Part shown: one piece after another, positions 51,607-59,217 of the stretch
Position numbering within the stretch: position 1 is the stretch's first letter
Layout of the letters: each line of letters opens with the position of its first letter
Source of the DNA: Spiribacter salinus M19-40
Lineage (GTDB): Bacteria; Pseudomonadota; Gammaproteobacteria; Nitrococcales; Nitrococcaceae
DNA length: 64,000 nt
Reading direction: 5' to 3'
NCBI RefSeq assembly: GCF_000319575.2
Contig: NC_021291.1
Span: 1,116,001-1,180,000, forward strand
The notes under the pieces: generated by a model
Seen by the model: only the letters and a program-made list of their open reading frames with translations
Databases searched by the model: none
What the model was told of the DNA's origin: nothing
Position numbers and translations under genes: made by a program

Positions 51607-51675
51607 AATCACCAGATAGCGTCATTAAGCTGTCATTTGATGTCAGGCACTAACCATCACGGAGGACTTTCGGCC

Positions 51676-52029
51676 ATGGCAGCTCAGAATCATCGACAGG
51701 GCGAGACAATGAATTTAACTGATCGCCGCGGACAGAAAGCACCCGGGATTTACATGCCGGCCATGCCGCCCATGGGCCTCCATCGGGCGATCAGTCGGTG
51801 GTTGCGTGCGCGGCGCCGCAATACCCGCGGCCAAGACCTGCGCGGCCTTGACGAGCGCCTGCTGAAAGATATCGGCGTGCCGGCGCGGCGTCGGGCCGAC
51901 CTGACCGAGCGTCAGCTCAGCGCGTTCTACGAGCAGCCGCTCGGCCGGGCACAGGGGAGCTACCGCATGGGTGAGCCCGCTGAACAGCACGCAACTCGGG
52001 CGCGCCCTCCCCGCGACACCCGCCAGTAA
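51676..52029 (+). CDS. DUF1127 (YjiS-like) small basic protein
   Basis: A 117-residue, Arg-rich protein. The DUF1127 core is at about residues 45-75: WLRARRRNTRGQDLRGLDERLLKDIGVPARR. Typical members have 45-70 residues, so this one carries extra N- and C-terminal stretches rich in Pro, Arg and Gln. In Rhodobacter and Agrobacterium such proteins affect RNA handling and phosphate or stress responses; no role is assigned here. The ATG at 51676 follows GGAGG by ten bases; ATG at 51709 would also be possible. A strong hairpin lies downstream, so the gene is a single unit. Confidence 0.75.
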   Translation: MAAQNHRQGETMNLTDRRGQKAPGIYMPAMPPMGLHRAISRWLRARRRNTRGQDLRGLDERLLKDIGVPARRRADLTERQLSAFYEQPLGRAQGSYRMGEPAEQHATRARPPRDTRQ

Positions 52030-52125: not shown

Positions 52126-53406
52126 ATGTCGATGAAATTGCTCGCGGTTGGTGATCTGCACCTGGGCCGGTTACCCACCCGACTCCCCGAATCACTCGGT
52201 TTGCCCCTTCAGGAGCTAGCGCCCGCTGGCGTCTGGGATCGAATCGTTGACTGCGCGTTGCAGGAACGCGTCTCAGCCGTCCTTCTGGCGGGCGACATTG
52301 TTGAATCCGATGATGATTTCTTCGAGGCGTTGCCCCGCTTGCGAGTTGGCATCCAGCGCCTGAGCGACGCAGGCATCCGCGTCCTTGGTATTAGCGGCAA
52401 CCACGATGGCGAAGTGCTCCCCTCACTTGCCGAGCAGCTTCCCGCCTTCGAGCTCATCGGTGCGGGGGGCAACTGGCAGTCCATCACATTGACTGATGGC
52501 GGCGAATCGGTGGATCTGTGGGGCTGGTCGTTCCCGGCCATCCACTATGACGCTAACCCGCTCAGCGCTTTTCCTGGCCGGCAAGACAGTCGACTCACGC
52601 TCGGACTACTGCACTGTGATCGTGACCAGGCTGGCAGCCGCTACGCGCCGGTGACCGGAGCAGATTTAAAAGACACCGGCCTGGATGCCTGGTTACTGGG
52701 CCACATTCATCAACCCGACACCCTGGGACTCGACCAACCGATCGGCTATCTCGGCACCGCCTCACCACTGGACGCCAGTGAAACTGGACCCCGTGGCCCC
52801 TGGCTGATCACCATCGCAAACGGCCGCCTGACGGACTGGCGGCACTGCCTGTTGGCCGCACTCCGCTGGGAGCGGCTAGACGTTGACTTGACCGGTGTCG
52901 ACGAGCGCTCGGGCGTTGATGGTCGCCTGGTCGAGGCCCTGGAGCGGTTGGCGGGCGAACTGACCGTGACGCCTGCACAACCCAGAGCGGTTGGATTGCG
53001 ATTGCGCTACACCGGAACCAGCGACATTGTCTCCGACCAGCTGCCCGCAGCGCTCGGTCGTGAGGCGGTCTCCGGTCTGCCAGGGGCTGAGCACATCGCC
53101 GCTTTTGTGGAATCGACAACCGTCGATCTGCGCCCCCGCATCGATCTGGCAACGCTGGCAGAAAGAGAAGACCATCCCGGGCTTCTGGCCCGACGTCTAC
53201 TGATCCTTGAGCGATCCGCGGAGGACCCTGAACGACAAGCGCTCATCGACAGCGCCGTGACCCACGTTAGGACGCTCGCCGATAACAGCCAGTGGCGACG
53301 CTTGGGCACGCCCCCTGAGGGGTCAACTGAAGTGGCCGGTCAACTCTGCCAGGCGGGTCAGGACGCACTGCGGGCCATGCTCAACCAGCAGGCCGACACG
53401 GAATGA
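52126..53406 (+). CDS. SbcD/YhaO-like metallophosphoesterase (DNA nuclease)
   Basis: A 426-residue protein with the full Mre11/SbcD ligand set: GDLHLGR (Asp10, His12), LLAGDIVES (Asp), GISGNHDGE (Asn, His), LLHCD (His) and LLGHIHQPD (two His). A capping region follows, then a C-terminal helical part. It is closer in form to B. subtilis YhaO than to SbcD, as far as motifs allow. The stop overlaps the ATPase start by four bases (ATGA), a strong sign of a two-subunit complex. mutS follows, so a DNA-repair setting is likely. Confidence 0.82.
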   Translation: MSMKLLAVGDLHLGRLPTRLPESLGLPLQELAPAGVWDRIVDCALQERVSAVLLAGDIVESDDDFFEALPRLRVGIQRLSDAGIRVLGISGNHDGEVLPSLAEQLPAFELIGAGGNWQSITLTDGGESVDLWGWSFPAIHYDANPLSAFPGRQDSRLTLGLLHCDRDQAGSRYAPVTGADLKDTGLDAWLLGHIHQPDTLGLDQPIGYLGTASPLDASETGPRGPWLITIANGRLTDWRHCLLAALRWERLDVDLTGVDERSGVDGRLVEALERLAGELTVTPAQPRAVGLRLRYTGTSDIVSDQLPAALGREAVSGLPGAEHIAAFVESTTVDLRPRIDLATLAEREDHPGLLARRLLILERSAEDPERQALIDSAVTHVRTLADNSQWRRLGTPPEGSTEVAGQLCQAGQDALRAMLNQQADTE

Positions 53407-56400
53407 AACTGACACGACTTGAAGTCCACCAGCTGCCCGGACTGCCAGCGGTGACCGTGGAGGATTTTCGGGCTGGTGTGAATTTTATTGTCGGTGACAA
53501 TGCCATCGGCAAGAGCAGTCTCATCCGCGCGCTGCACAGCGTGCTGTTACCCGCTGGTGCACGCCAGGCGTCGGCCATCGCCGTTGCCGCTGAGTTCGAC
53601 CAGGGGGATGATCACTGGCGTGCGGATCGCGCCGGCACCCAGGTGGACTGGAGCCTGAATGGACAGACGGCCGAGCCACCGCCGCTGCCAGCACCCGAGG
53701 CACTGCACTGTTACTGGCTGAGCGCGCAAAGCCTCCTCACGCCTAATGAAGCCGATCAGCAGGAGCTCTCCCGCCGGCTGCGTCAGGCCCTGGCCGGCGG
53801 CATCGACCTTGGCGCCGTTCGAGAGACCCCAGGTCTTCGACGCGTCCAATTCCCCCAGCGCCTGCACGGTGAGCTGGACGAAGCTCGAAGCGCGCGACGC
53901 GCCCAGGAAAGCGCCTACCGGCAGCTGGAGGCTGAGCGACACCGGTTGCCAGAGCGCCGAGCCGCCCTTGACCAGGCACGGGCTGCCGGGGACAGGGCCG
54001 ATCGGCTCGAACAGGCATTAGCTGTCGCTGACCTCCACCAACAGCGGCTTGAAATCGATCGCCAGCTCGAGGCATTCCCCACCGCCATTCTCGCCATGAA
54101 AGGGGATGAGCTAGAGCGGGCGGATGCGCTGTCGAGCGCGATGGCCGAGTCTGAACAAACACTGGCTCAGGCCGAGCGCACGCTGGGCCAAACCGAGCAG
54201 GCGCTTCAAGCAACCGGTCTCCCGGATCAGCAACCGACCCGTGCCCAACTGGAAAGCCTGCGCCTGGCGCTCCAGCACCTGCGTGACCGGGAGCAGGCTG
54301 CCGAGCGGGCCACCCTTGCCCGCCAGCGGGCCGAGGCGGTTGCCGATGAGGCCTACGCAGAACTTGGCGCCCATGCACCAGGCGACGTGCGCGTCACGCC
54401 TGGGTTTATCGACACGCTCGAGGAGGCGATTCGCGAGCGCGAGATCGCCACGCAGGCCCTCGCTGCCCATGAGACCCGATCCAACACACCCTATGCGGTC
54501 AAGCCCTGGCTGCAGGGCGTCCTGCCGGTAATTGGCGGTGGTGTTGCGACGCTGGGCGGACTGATTGGCCCCAGCCCGATCGCACTCATTGGCGGTGGCC
54601 TGGCGCTGCTTGGGGGGTTGCTGGCCATGATGTGGACGCGCTGGCGATCGCCGGCGGCAGACAACGCGGGCGGCGCGGCCCTGAAGACGGCGGCTGATCA
54701 AGCCAGCGAGCGCGTCAAGCGACTCTTAATCGAGCAAGGCATCGAACCTGACGCGCTCGAGAACAGCGGTATCCCCCGCCTGCTGCGCATTGGCCAGCGC
54801 CTGGACCAGGCAAAAGCGGATCAAGCCGGCGCCCAGGCAGAAGAAACGCAATCAAGAGAAGCGGCCGAGCAACTGCGTGAGCAATTTGTCGGGCATCTGA
54901 GCGCATGGGTGCCTGTCGAGCGCGACGACCTCGAGGCCCTGCAGGCAACGCTCGAGGATCTGGTCAATCGATCTGACGAAGCCGCGACGATCCTGCGGAC
55001 GCGCGCGACCGAAACCGAGCGGGCATCCGCTGTGCGGGAGACGCTGGAAGATCAGCAGACCTATCAGACAAAGCTCTACCAGGCGCTGGCACTCAACCCG
55101 GGCGATCGCGCGGGCCTCGAGCACAAGCTGGCACAGCACAGCGAGTTTCAAGCACTTAAAGCGCAGCAAGCCGAGCTCGAGGCCCGAGAGCAGGAGCGAG
55201 CCCAGCAGCTTCACGCTCACCCGGCGCTCCTGGAACAGGCCAGAGCCCATGAGACGGAAGTGCTCGCGTCCGCCCTGGCCGAGGCCAGGCTGGAGGCGGA
55301 GCGCGTTGAGCCGTTACACGCAGAAATTGCCCAAATCGAGGCGCGGCTATCACAAACCGGCAGTGACGAGGCGCTCGCTGAGGCGATCACCCGAGAGCAG
55401 CAGCTCACCGAGACACTCGCGGATGCTCGACAGGCCCACCAGTATCAATGCCTGGGCGACTGGTTACTGAGTGATGTCGAGACGGCCTATCGTGAGCAAC
55501 ATGAGCCCGCCCTGATTGAAGATGCCCGCGCGCGCTTCGAGCGATTCACGCGCCATGAGTGGTCATTGTCCGTCAACGAGGCCCATGAGCTAACCGCCAG
55601 AGATCTGCGAAGCGGCGCCTTACGCCCCCTCGATGAGCTCTCCTCGGGCACACGCATGCAGCTGCTGCTTGCCGCACGAGTTGCCTGGGCCCGAGATCAG
55701 GAGCGTCAGACCACACCGCTGCCGCTGGCACTGGATGAGACCCTCAATGCAAGCGACCCCGCCCGGTTCCGCGCCGCGGCAGAGAGCCTGGCGCAGTTGG
55801 CGGCAGAGGAAGACCGACAGATCCTGTACCTGACCGCACGCCCAGAAGACCCGCTGCTCTGGGAATCCACGACAAAGACGCCCGTCCACACAATCGACCT
55901 TCAGCAACACTTGCAAGGGAAGCCGTTCGCGGCACCCTCCACGCCGATACCCGCGCGGCCAGCCATCCCCGAGCCGGGCGATGAACCGCCCCAGGCATAC
56001 GCCGAGCGCCTGGGCGTGCCCGCCATCAACCCGTTACAGGATGCCGGTGAGATTCATCTTTTTCACCTGTTTCAGGATCACCTCGATGTGCTGTACGACT
56101 TGCTGGCGAACTGGGGCATTGATCGGCTCGGGCCGGCTGAACGGTGGCTGCAGAGTCCAGCTGCCCAACACCTGAGAGAGAAGGCCACCTGGCCTGAGAC
56201 ACTCTCGGCCCGCATCCGTATGGCTCGGACCTGGGCGACCCTCGCCCGCCAGGGCCTGGGCCGGCCCGTTGGGCCAGAGGCCATTGTGGAGAGCAAAACA
56301 CAGAGTGTCGCGATGGCCGAGCGGATCGCCCGCGTCGCGCAAACCTGCGAAGGCCAGGCCGATCAGCTGATTGCCAAGCTGCGCAAGGGTGATGTCCCGA

Positions 56401-56585
56401 ATCTGCAGAAAACGCGAATCGACGCCCTCGCCGACTGGCTGACCGAGCATGATTACCTGGATGCCCGCGAGCCGGCCGACGCCATGACCCTGGCCGCCGA
56501 GCTGGCCGGTCAGTTCGGGCACCGCGACGGACCAACCGAGGCCCAGCAAGTAGCAGCCTGGCTTGCCAGCGGCGCAGGCCGCTAG
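53403..56585 (+). CDS. SbcC/YhaN-like SMC-type ATPase with membrane segments and C-terminal extension
   Basis: A 1060-residue partner of the nuclease. Walker A is GDNAIGKSS (residues 31-39); the ABC signature region is LDELSSGTRMQLLLAARVAW near 743; Walker B is LPLALDETLNASD near 773. Long coiled coils rich in Glu, Arg, Ala and Gln fill residues 160-360 and 420-690. A pair of membrane-like helices (residues 366-412, GVLPVIGGGVATLGGLI and IALIGGGLALLGGLLAM) sits where SbcC has its zinc hook, as in YhaN. About 200 residues after the ATPase (from about 855) form a separate helical domain that I do not recognise. Start and ATGA coupling are clear. Confidence 0.8.
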   Translation: MKLTRLEVHQLPGLPAVTVEDFRAGVNFIVGDNAIGKSSLIRALHSVLLPAGARQASAIAVAAEFDQGDDHWRADRAGTQVDWSLNGQTAEPPPLPAPEALHCYWLSAQSLLTPNEADQQELSRRLRQALAGGIDLGAVRETPGLRRVQFPQRLHGELDEARSARRAQESAYRQLEAERHRLPERRAALDQARAAGDRADRLEQALAVADLHQQRLEIDRQLEAFPTAILAMKGDELERADALSSAMAESEQTLAQAERTLGQTEQALQATGLPDQQPTRAQLESLRLALQHLRDREQAAERATLARQRAEAVADEAYAELGAHAPGDVRVTPGFIDTLEEAIREREIATQALAAHETRSNTPYAVKPWLQGVLPVIGGGVATLGGLIGPSPIALIGGGLALLGGLLAMMWTRWRSPAADNAGGAALKTAADQASERVKRLLIEQGIEPDALENSGIPRLLRIGQRLDQAKADQAGAQAEETQSREAAEQLREQFVGHLSAWVPVERDDLEALQATLEDLVNRSDEAATILRTRATETERASAVRETLEDQQTYQTKLYQALALNPGDRAGLEHKLAQHSEFQALKAQQAELEAREQERAQQLHAHPALLEQARAHETEVLASALAEARLEAERVEPLHAEIAQIEARLSQTGSDEALAEAITREQQLTETLADARQAHQYQCLGDWLLSDVETAYREQHEPALIEDARARFERFTRHEWSLSVNEAHELTARDLRSGALRPLDELSSGTRMQLLLAARVAWARDQERQTTPLPLALDETLNASDPARFRAAAESLAQLAAEEDRQILYLTARPEDPLLWESTTKTPVHTIDLQQHLQGKPFAAPSTPIPARPAIPEPGDEPPQAYAERLGVPAINPLQDAGEIHLFHLFQDHLDVLYDLLANWGIDRLGPAERWLQSPAAQHLREKATWPETLSARIRMARTWATLARQGLGRPVGPEAIVESKTQSVAMAERIARVAQTCEGQADQLIAKLRKGDVPNLQKTRIDALADWLTEHDYLDAREPADAMTLAAELAGQFGHRDGPTEAQQVAAWLASGAGR

Positions 56586-56634: not shown

Positions 56635-59217
56635 ATGGCCGAAGACGCTCCGCACACACCCATGATGCGTCAGTTCCTGCGCATTAAGGCAGAACACCCG
56701 GATGTTCTGCTTTTTTATCGCATGGGTGATTTCTATGAGCTTTTCTACGACGATGCCCGCCGGGCAGCCGGGCTTCTCGATATTACGCTGACCCAGCGCG
56801 GTGAATCGGCGGGCGCACCGATCCCTATGGCCGGCATTCCCGCGCATGCCTATGAGGGCTATCTCGCACGTCTCCTTGCCCGCGGCGAATCCGTCGCGAT
56901 TTGCGAGCAGGTCGGCGATCCCGCCAGCAGCAAAGGGCCGGTTGAGCGGCAAGTGGTGCGGATCGTCACGCCCGGCACGCTCACGGATGAGGCGCTGCTC
57001 GACGCGCGACGCAGCAATCTTCTGACAGCAGTCGCCGGCTCGGCAGCACAATGGGGACTGGCCACGCTGGAATTGGCGGCCGGGCGTTTCAGTGTGACTG
57101 AAGGCACGGGTGAAACCGCGCTGGCTGCCGAACTGGAGCGCCTGGCGCCCGCTGAACTGTTACTACCCGATGACCTACCGGATTCGGCTGCCTGGACGGC
57201 TCGGCGCGGCCTCACTCGCCGACCGCCCTGGCACTTCGTGCATGACGCCGCAACACGAACGCTGACCGAGCATTTCGGCACCCGTGACCTCAATGGATTT
57301 GGCGTCGCCGACATGCCCCGAGCCATCGCGGCAGCGGGCGGGCTATTGCAGTACGTCCGTGACACTCAGCGTGCCGCCCTACCGCATATCCGCCACCTGG
57401 GCGTGGAGAGCAGCGACGAGGCGATCATGATCGACGCCGCCAGTCGTCGAAACCTCGAACTGGAAAACAATCTGGCGGGTGGCCGCGAGCACACCCTCGC
57501 AGCCGTCCTCGACACCACGGTCACGGGGATGGGCAGCCGACTGCTCCGGCGCTGGATCAACCGGCCACTCCGCGATCACGGCGAGCTGCTTGCCCGACAG
57601 GCGGCGATTGGGGCGCTTCTGCCCGGCGGCCTTCACGCGCCCCGCGACCTCCTGCAGCGATGTGCCGACATCGAGCGTATTGCCGCCCGCATCGGCATGC
57701 GGACCGCCCGCCCCCGCGACCTGACCGGTCTGCGCGATACGCTGGCCTGCCTGCCCGACCTCCATGGCGCCCTCGCCGCGTTCACCGATCCCCGGCTGCA
57801 AACCCTGACGGCCGCCCTGACACCCCGGCCAGCCGTTGCCGCGCAGCTTCAACGCGCCATCGTCGAGCAGCCTCCAGTCATCCTGCGCGATGGCGGTGTG
57901 ATCGCGGAGGGCTACGATGCTGAACTCGATGAACTGCGGGGCCTCTCCCGTAACGCGGATGGCTTTTTGCGTGATCTTGAGCAACGTGAACGCGAATCAA
58001 CCGGCCTGTCCACGCTCAAGGTGAGCTACAACCGGGTCCATGGCTATTACATCGAAATTAGCCGTGGCCAAGCCGATCAGGCTCCAGAGCGCTATATCCG
58101 TCGCCAGACATTAAAGGGGGCCGAGCGTTACATCACGCCCGAGCTCAAGGAATTTGAAGACAAGGTGCTCTCTGCGAAAGAGCGCGCGCTGGCTCGGGAA
58201 AAGGCCCTGTACGAATCGCTGATCACCGCACTGGCCGAATCGCTCGAGGACTGGCTGGCCCTCGCCGAAGCGCTGGCGGAGCTCGACACCCTCACCACGC
58301 TTGCCGAGCGCTCCGCCACCCTGGGTTACCGCGCACCGGTTCTCGATAGCGAACCCGGCATCGAACTCACCGCCGCGCGCCACCCGGTCGTGGAGCAAAG
58401 CCTTGACGCCCCCTTCGTCCCCAATGACATTGCGCTCAATGAGCAACAGCGCATGCTGGTGATCACGGGCCCGAACATGGGGGGCAAGTCCACCTACATG
58501 CGCCAGATCGCGCTGCTGACCCTCATGGCCCATATCGGCAGCCATGTGCCAGCGGATGCGGCCCGGTTCGGGCCCATCGATCGTATCTTTACCCGCATTG
58601 GCGCCTCGGATGACCTCGCAGGCGGTCGATCCACGTTCATGGTCGAAATGACCGAGACGGCCAACATCCTCCACAACGCCACGCCTTCAAGCCTGGTTTT
58701 GCTCGATGAAATCGGCCGTGGCACCAGTACATTTGATGGCCTGGCACTGGCATGGGCAACGGCCGAGGCCCTGTGTGGCCAGATCGGTGCGTTCACGCTT
58801 TTTGCCACGCATTACTTCGAGATGACCGCCCTGCCGGCGCAGTACCCGAGCGCGGCCAATGTGCATCTGCAAGCCGTTGAACACGGCGAGCGAATCGTCT
58901 TTCTGCATCGCGTCCAGCCAGGAGCTGCCAATCAAAGCTATGGCTTGCAAGTGGCGGCACTCGCTGGCGTACCCGACGCGGTCCTCACGGCGGCGCGCCA
59001 GAAACTGACCGAGCTTGAACAGGGCGACGGCGGCCCGCCGCAGCTGCCGCTGTTCGCGGCCCCGCCGGCCGAGCCACCTCCCCAGCCAGCGATGGACGGC
59101 CCAGAGCGCGCGGTGCTTGAAGAGATTGAGGGCCTCGATCCAGATGCATTAACGCCCCGAGACGCGCACGCACTGCTCTATCGCCTACGAGCACTTGCGA
59201 AACCCCATGAGCGGTAG
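56635..59217 (+). CDS. mutS: DNA mismatch repair protein MutS
   Basis: Recognises mismatches and small loops and recruits MutL. The mismatch-binding F-x-E is in [12 protein letters not shown]; Walker A is [13 protein letters not shown] near residue 612 and Walker [13 protein letters not shown] near 691. The C-terminal tail has the short helix used for tetramer formation ([20 protein letters not shown]). The 860 residues fit. fdxA follows, the mutS-fdxA order seen in Pseudomonas. Confidence 0.97.

Follow-up and report, generated by a model that had tools for sequence, protein, structure and literature searches.

The window analyzed in this study, a stretch of 64,000 nucleotides from Spiribacter salinus M19-40 (NCBI RefSeq assembly GCF_000319575.2, contig NC_021291.1, positions 1,116,001 to 1,180,000 of the forward strand), carries at positions 52126 to 56585 a gene pair encoding a nuclease of the Mre11/SbcD type and an ATPase of the SMC/Rad50 type. 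The pair belongs to a real, conserved variant of SbcCD/SbcEF that is common to Gammaproteobacteria and haloarchaea, and this family of nuclease and ATPase was named T1. By homology to SbcCD/SbcEF, the window pair should be an ATP-gated end-processing nuclease. With a probability of about 0.6, the two proteins form a heteromeric Mre11-Rad50-type complex in the role of SbcCD/SbcEF, tethered to the membrane and processing DNA ends there. We infer the formation of this complex, its membrane insertion, its substrate, and the role of its additional C-terminal domain.

The nuclease and the ATPase head

The nuclease gene (52126..53406, forward strand, as are all features of the window given below) encodes 426 amino acids and matched PF00149 with 34.1 bits (cut-off 21.5). 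An earlier note, made from the DNA letters without database searches, had credited this protein with all SbcD/Mre11 metal ligands. This was borne out by residues D10, H12, D57, N92 and H93 (within N92-H93-D94), H163, and H193 and H195 (as H193-x-H195), which were invariant in 19 of 19 aligned nucleases and whose ligand roles we take to be those of Mre11/SbcD. Against the SbcD model TIGR00619 the nuclease reached 26.6 bits, under the cut-off of 77.65. The nuclease profile matched SbcD with an E of 6.8e-10 and YhaO-type nucleases with a profile-profile E of 9.7e-42 over residues 2-423, and by these scores the nucleases of the family are closest to the YhaO type.

The ATPase gene (53403..56585), assigned by its open reading frame (ORF), a structure model, and Foldseek, encodes 1060 amino acids and overlaps the nuclease gene by an ATGA at 53403-53406 (GGAATGAAACTG), as the earlier note had described. 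Three motifs of the head were located by sequence: Walker A (GDNAIGKSS, residues 31-39, 53493..53519), the ABC signature (LSSGTRMQLLLA, residues 746-757, 55638..55673), and Walker B (LPLALDE, residues 773-779, 55719..55739). The signature starts at residue 746 with LSSGTRMQLLL and has the YhaN-like form SxGTRxQL. The ATPase is conserved in other genera, whose proteins share 22-48% identity with that of the window, and the ORFs are therefore not products of chance.

Sequence libraries recognized the ATPase poorly. No match at E<=1 was obtained to the SbcC model TIGR00618 or to AAA_27 (PF13514, cut-off 22 bits), and the protein was absent from the three AAA_27 matches in its own genome, which is complete at 1.74 Mb. 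AAA_27 was matched at E<=0.01 by 7 of 20 T1 members, with a best E of 1.7e-5, and by 4 of 4 tested YhaN types with E from 3e-67 to 5e-76. T1 misses the SbcC, SbcD, and AAA_27 models and was treated as a family of its own. Sequence matches to Rad50/SMC proteins were weak and mostly confined to the Walker A region. The full-length structure model, with a mean predicted local distance difference test score (pLDDT) of 83 and a predicted template modelling score (pTM) of 0.43, resembled Smc5/6 (Foldseek E 1.6e-11), Mre11-Rad50-Nbs1 (2.2e-11), the E. coli SbcC head (2.2e-5), and also MukB. Its secondary structure and the Foldseek matches indicate an ABC head split around a coiled coil, and on this model the ATPase belongs to the SMC/Rad50 superfamily.

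The coiled-coil apex and the C-terminal domain

Two membrane-like helices had been proposed for residues 366-412 in the middle of the coiled coil, and this placement held to within a few residues (368-413), at the coil apex. The predicted membrane hairpin (residues 369-413, 54507..54641) rests on hydropathy, which gave hydrophobic segments at residues 370-388 and 393-411, and on the model, which gave helices at 369-388 and 392-413 joined by a 3-residue turn; an uncharged run of 45 residues (368-412) covers nearly all of it. At the threshold used, two apex segments were present in 51 of 61 T1 members, one in 9, and none in 1. CxxC was absent at residues 250-650 from all 61 members, and the cysteines of the window protein stand only at 103, 683, and 982.

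Two further types of nuclease-ATPase pair occur in relatives, namely T2, the YhaN/YhaO types of 1152-1226 amino acids, and T3, with smaller SbcC-like ATPases of about 876-902 amino acids. The apex segment pair was found in none of nine gammaproteobacterial T2 and eight T3 ATPases, of which three and one, respectively, had one marginal hydrophobic segment elsewhere. An uncharged run of at least 33 residues occurred in 36 of 61 T1 members, against runs of 15-27 in seven YhaN types. In the 12 residues on each side of the hairpin (51 members), K+R amounted to 2.5 and 3.0 compared to 1.8 elsewhere in the coils and D+E to 0.9 and 1.4 compared to 2.4, with the edge set at the nearest charged residue and the figures given without a significance test. 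The sequence pattern as a whole fits a cytoplasmic protein that would dip a two-helix hairpin into the membrane.

Several observations weigh against membrane insertion. The first hairpin helix of the window protein is Gly-rich and weakly hydrophobic, model confidence is low at the apex (blocks of pLDDT 39-67), and at least one charged residue lies inside 23 of the 51 hairpins. The Gly-rich helix and the charged residues, together with the short helical turn and the 10 of 61 members in which, at the threshold used, one segment or both are missing, would suit an ordinary soluble variant of SbcCD/YhaNO, whose apex helices would serve as a hydrophobic dimerisation hook and whose C-terminal domain would merely stabilise the head. 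Such a variant is nevertheless fairly unlikely. Against it stand the long uncharged runs, the positively charged flanks, the absence of the segment pair from the YhaN-type and smaller ATPases, and the presence of at least one apex hydrophobic segment in 5 of 5 complete haloarchaeal ATPases examined, with two segments in 3 of them.

The idea that the hairpin is exclusive to T1 was rejected. A different gammaproteobacterial genome (G384) holds the C-terminal half of an unclassified ATPase (L062:1-1476), a fragment that begins at a contig end and has two hydrophobic apex stretches, the YhaN-like signature LSRGTRDQ, and a T1 profile match of E 1.5e-39; nothing follows its ATPase head, so that the C-terminal domain is missing. 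The hairpin may therefore be common to some YhaN-like proteins, and the fragment may link T1 with hairpin-bearing proteins of this kind.

The second distinguishing part of T1 is a family-specific C-terminal domain (residues 846-1060, 55938..56582), assigned by profile and model. The stretch that the earlier note could not assign (residues 855-1060) thus begins slightly earlier, at about 846, and still has no convincing Pfam or PDB match. At E<=1e-5 the domain profile matched every one of the 95 distinct T1 loci, and in the 76 loci, out of a subset of 78, that reach their stop codon the domain measured 211-241 residues. Modelled alone with 68 sequences, it was predicted to be all-helical with a mean pLDDT of 96, and in the model a low-confidence linker at residues 840-850 joins it to the head. 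Profile comparison gave no match to the domain in T2, T3, or the nuclease, with nine YhaN types aligned. The domain is therefore not, as the earlier note had allowed, a standard part of YhaN/SbcC proteins, but standard in T1 and foreign to the YhaN/SbcC-like proteins compared.

Searches for the identity of the domain gave weak matches throughout. The Pfam scan of 68 members returned scattered families, of which, among the 25 of 49 listed, Ish1 was matched by 7 of 68 (best 0.0054), while DUF3263 was matched by one of the 68 (0.00052). The PDB sequence profile search gave one match (E 0.46), Foldseek reached a best E of 2.1 in PDB and 1.4 in viral models, and a second structural comparison reached a best Z of 5.3 over 52 residues. 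The weak structural matches clustered on domain-model residues 109-172, included SAM-like and HhH-like pieces, and lay within chance. A function taken from known families was consequently rejected, since the Pfam, PDB profile, and Foldseek matches were all weak, although a new fold is not shown thereby. The charge of the domain does not favour DNA binding: with -0.040 per residue, against -0.035 in the remainder of the protein, the domain is about equally acidic, although a few K/R columns show conservation. A catalytic role of H885 and H888 is unlikely, with H888 replaced by Tyr in six haloarchaeal rows and H885 by Asp in Halorussus.

In an even sample of 369 genomes of the class, the domain occurred in 8 genomes, always within frames of ATPase size, plus two weak matches, and among 398 genomes of the phylum in 1, the own genome, plus three weak matches. 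Two loci from two species of one genus (L196 and L198, genomes G637 and G607) matched domain-profile residues 112-171 weakly, with E 0.007-0.01. It is possible that the extra domain gives the complex a new partner or target, as had been proposed.

Distribution, relatives, and genomic context

In searches with the window protein and profiles, 105 loci scored above 300 bits, and 95 of these loci are distinct. The nuclease lies directly upstream of the ATPase in 90 of the 95 distinct loci, and in the remaining five (L110, L133, L148, L150, and L154) the ATPase match starts at most 0.8 kb from a contig end. The overlap between the genes measures 4 bases in 58 loci and 1 base in 18, with the start not assignable in 7. 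Five contigs of metagenome-assembled genomes (L092, L105, L124, L143, and L152), assigned to Bacillota, Planctomycetota, and others, may be misbinned and support no claim made here. In the tree, all 69 T1 rows stood apart from four T3 rows with a support of 100 (T2 lies outside this tree), and all eight haloarchaeal rows formed one clade.

Every one of the 14 genus genomes sampled contained the T1 ATPase, one of them as a contig-end piece only, as expected of a housekeeping gene. It occurred in 31 of 59 relatives, with one weak match set aside, and in 8 of the 369 class genomes, own genome included. Among named relatives, Spiribacter and other Ectothiorhodospiraceae stand nearest, and a canonical SbcCD was found in 1 of the 59 (G036). 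The T1 pair is scattered in Gammaproteobacteria and carried on haloarchaeal plasmids. Judging by their names, many of the bacterial hosts are presumably salt or soda-lake organisms. T3 pairs (L173 and L178-L184) seem to alternate with the window-type pair among relatives.

T1 shares with SbcCD of E. coli and with Mre11-Rad50 the Mre11-type nuclease ligands, the adjacent SMC/Rad50-type head, and a coiled coil with an apex element. It differs by its SbcD score below the cut-off, by the lack of an SbcC match and of CxxC, and by the added hairpin and C-terminal domain. The likeness to B. subtilis YhaO/YhaN (SbcEF) that the earlier note had pointed out stood in part. The nuclease-ATPase operon, the nuclease alignable over its full length, the SxGTRxQL signature, and the long coiled coils are shared, whereas the window ATPase has no AAA_27 match and an extra domain of 215 residues after the head, and the nine gammaproteobacterial YhaN types have neither this domain nor the hairpin pair. 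T3 resembles T1 in its neighbouring nuclease, in an ATPase profile match of E 1.2e-31, and in the lack of CxxC, and hence of a zinc hook, in eight ATPases checked, but has neither the segment pair nor the C-terminal domain. One source reports that SbcEF has been implicated in the repair of double-strand breaks, in a role that is poorly characterised (PMC6452273). The literature searched, which covered few subscription papers, described no family with both the hairpin and the C-terminal domain.

A relative was found in nine haloarchaeal plasmid records, six of which were inspected residue by residue, while three more were added to the tree. In five of the six the pair is complete and matched the T1 profiles with E <=3.1e-210 for the ATPase, <=7.4e-94 for the nuclease, and <=5.9e-47 for the C-terminal domain. 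The signature pattern LSSGT was present in 4 of these 5 ATPases, and CxxC was absent from all 5. The sixth record, from Natrinema halophilum, holds an ATPase fragment that includes the C-terminal domain. Near-identical copies occur in four genera of two families (Haloarculaceae and Natrialbaceae), which favours a recent spread.

Several genes accompany the pair on these plasmids. Genes for a UvrD helicase and a PD-(D/E)XK nuclease, AddAB-like, lie near it on haloarchaeal plasmids (L199:1-3839 and L202:15334-19306), adjoining it on a Halapricum plasmid and standing at least four genes away on a Halorussus plasmid. A TmtA-like defence protein (E 2e-105, L205:3739-6171) is encoded one gene from the pair on a Halosimplex plasmid. 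A 562-aa protein, preceded by a large protein, lies upstream of the pair, immediately before it in L203 and L206, where Pfam found the NrS-1 polymerase HBD domain, and two genes away in L205. The HBD-domain protein beside the pair suggests a replication-linked module.

This carriage on plasmids, as near-identical copies in two families, also fits a mobile or defence function and counts against a role in repair. A system for defence or plasmid competition would consist of a membrane-anchored complex that attacks incoming DNA close to where it enters, with the C-terminal domain sensing foreign DNA or a phage protein. The sparse occurrence outside the genus, the haloarchaeal copies, and the TmtA-like gene on one plasmid speak for it, as does the resemblance of the full ATPase model to Lamassu LmuB (9hqx, E 7e-7), likewise an SMC-like coiled-coil ATPase in a nuclease complex. 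It was nonetheless judged improbable. Presence in every sampled genome of the genus, often beside mutS, speaks against it, and PADLOC gave the window nuclease no match at E<=1 and the Natrinema nuclease none. The window ATPase matched 41 PADLOC families generically, with a best E of 1.8e-8 (mad3) and, among the 25 listed, nearly always in the Walker A region only; its matches to LmuB models were weak, Walker-region matches (best 1.5e-4), and no single PADLOC defence system was matched by both proteins. Relatives were also absent from the phage collection and from viral contigs in a pattern-based scan, whose 63 pattern matches included none.

Across the family the nuclease was the sole constant neighbour. 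Directly downstream of the window pair lies mutS (56635..59217), starting 49 bases after the ATPase gene, so that the adjacency reported earlier is correct, but mutS lies outside the conserved module of the family. Among 11 genus loci with mutS found, window included, it follows within 60 bp on the same strand in 8 and lies 1.2-3.8 kb from the pair in three; at one further genus locus (L087) the contig ends too soon to judge. In L131 and L159, mutS lies 4-5 kb upstream. The mutS link belongs to the genus rather than to T1, and mutS is possibly co-transcribed with the pair there. A joint function with MutS in mismatch or long-loop repair, to which these positions would point, is very improbable given the gaps in three genus members and the lack of any family-wide neighbour except the nuclease.

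For DNA-end processing at the membrane, the neighbours and a tendency of related pairs not to co-occur provide further evidence. By Pfam, L037 has recB and a recD gene whose end is only a few bases away from the pair, and L145 and L146 carry recB-recD upstream of it at a distance of 0.7-0.9 kb. Together with the UvrD and PD-(D/E)XK genes, these neighbours suggest a link to double-strand-break repair, found in 6 of 95 loci by a motif search for recB, recD, and UvrD neighbours that had no random control and in which L145 and L146 may not be independent. A second SbcD-like pair was present in 3 of 31 relatives with T1 compared to 13 of 28 without (Fisher p 0.003), and in 2 of 22 compared to 9 of 20 high-quality genomes (p 0.013), in a statistic that ignores phylogeny and uses a cut-off (SbcD model E<=1e-9 outside the T1 pair) fixed after the table was viewed; a doubtful short match in G011 would give 4 of 31. 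Canonical SbcD exceeded its cut-off in 43 of the 369 class genomes; none of the 8 T1 genomes in this sample had it, but they are too few to depart from chance. In the own genome, no second SbcD or SbcC match was found except one in a 1177-aa frame elsewhere. For B. pumilus, the genes listed under lexA/SOS include yhaO and yhaN (PMC3896406), whereas no E. coli-type LexA box (CTGT-N8-ACAG, -300 to +60) lay upstream of the pair in 82 of 82 T1 loci, with such a box in 7 of 1800 random stretches, and SOS control of the pair was rejected.

Promoter and terminator scans stayed near chance, with 2 against 1.0 expected and 6 against 4.9 expected, respectively. A 130-aa ORF at 51637-52029, between a LysR-type gene and the nuclease gene, looks DUF1127-like but had no Pfam match at E<=0.001.

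Proposed mechanism and meaning

In the membrane-tethered end-processing complex that we favour, ATP would bring two ATPase heads into engagement, and the heads would govern access to a dimeric, metal-dependent nuclease, whose substrates may be double-strand break ends, hairpins, or blocked ends. The coiled coils would run from the heads to an apex where a two-helix hairpin in the cytoplasmic membrane replaces the zinc hook, so that the apex is fixed while the heads and the nuclease stay in the cytoplasm. A flexible linker would suspend the C-terminal helical domain from the C-terminal lobe of the ATPase, near the head. There the domain would most likely serve as a docking site for a partner protein or DNA and recruit a partner or substrate.

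More tentatively, and with lower confidence than in the complex itself, T1 may constitute a distinct cross-domain class of Mre11-Rad50 systems, membrane-anchored via the coil apex and equipped with a new recruitment domain, which would police or process DNA ends at the membrane both in bacteria, of which many are salt-adapted, and on plasmids of haloarchaea, standing in for SbcCD. Rad50 complexes carry zinc hooks and act in the recognition and processing of DNA ends (PMC10586767). The zinc hook is regarded as the point where Rad50-type proteins join or close, at the apex of the coil. If the proposal is true, a membrane hairpin at the apex in bacteria and archaea would link the membrane with DNA-end processing and provide a natural test of the role of the apex. 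T1 also defines a conserved domain without a match in the libraries searched, and it may account for the way in which certain bacteria get by without SbcCD.

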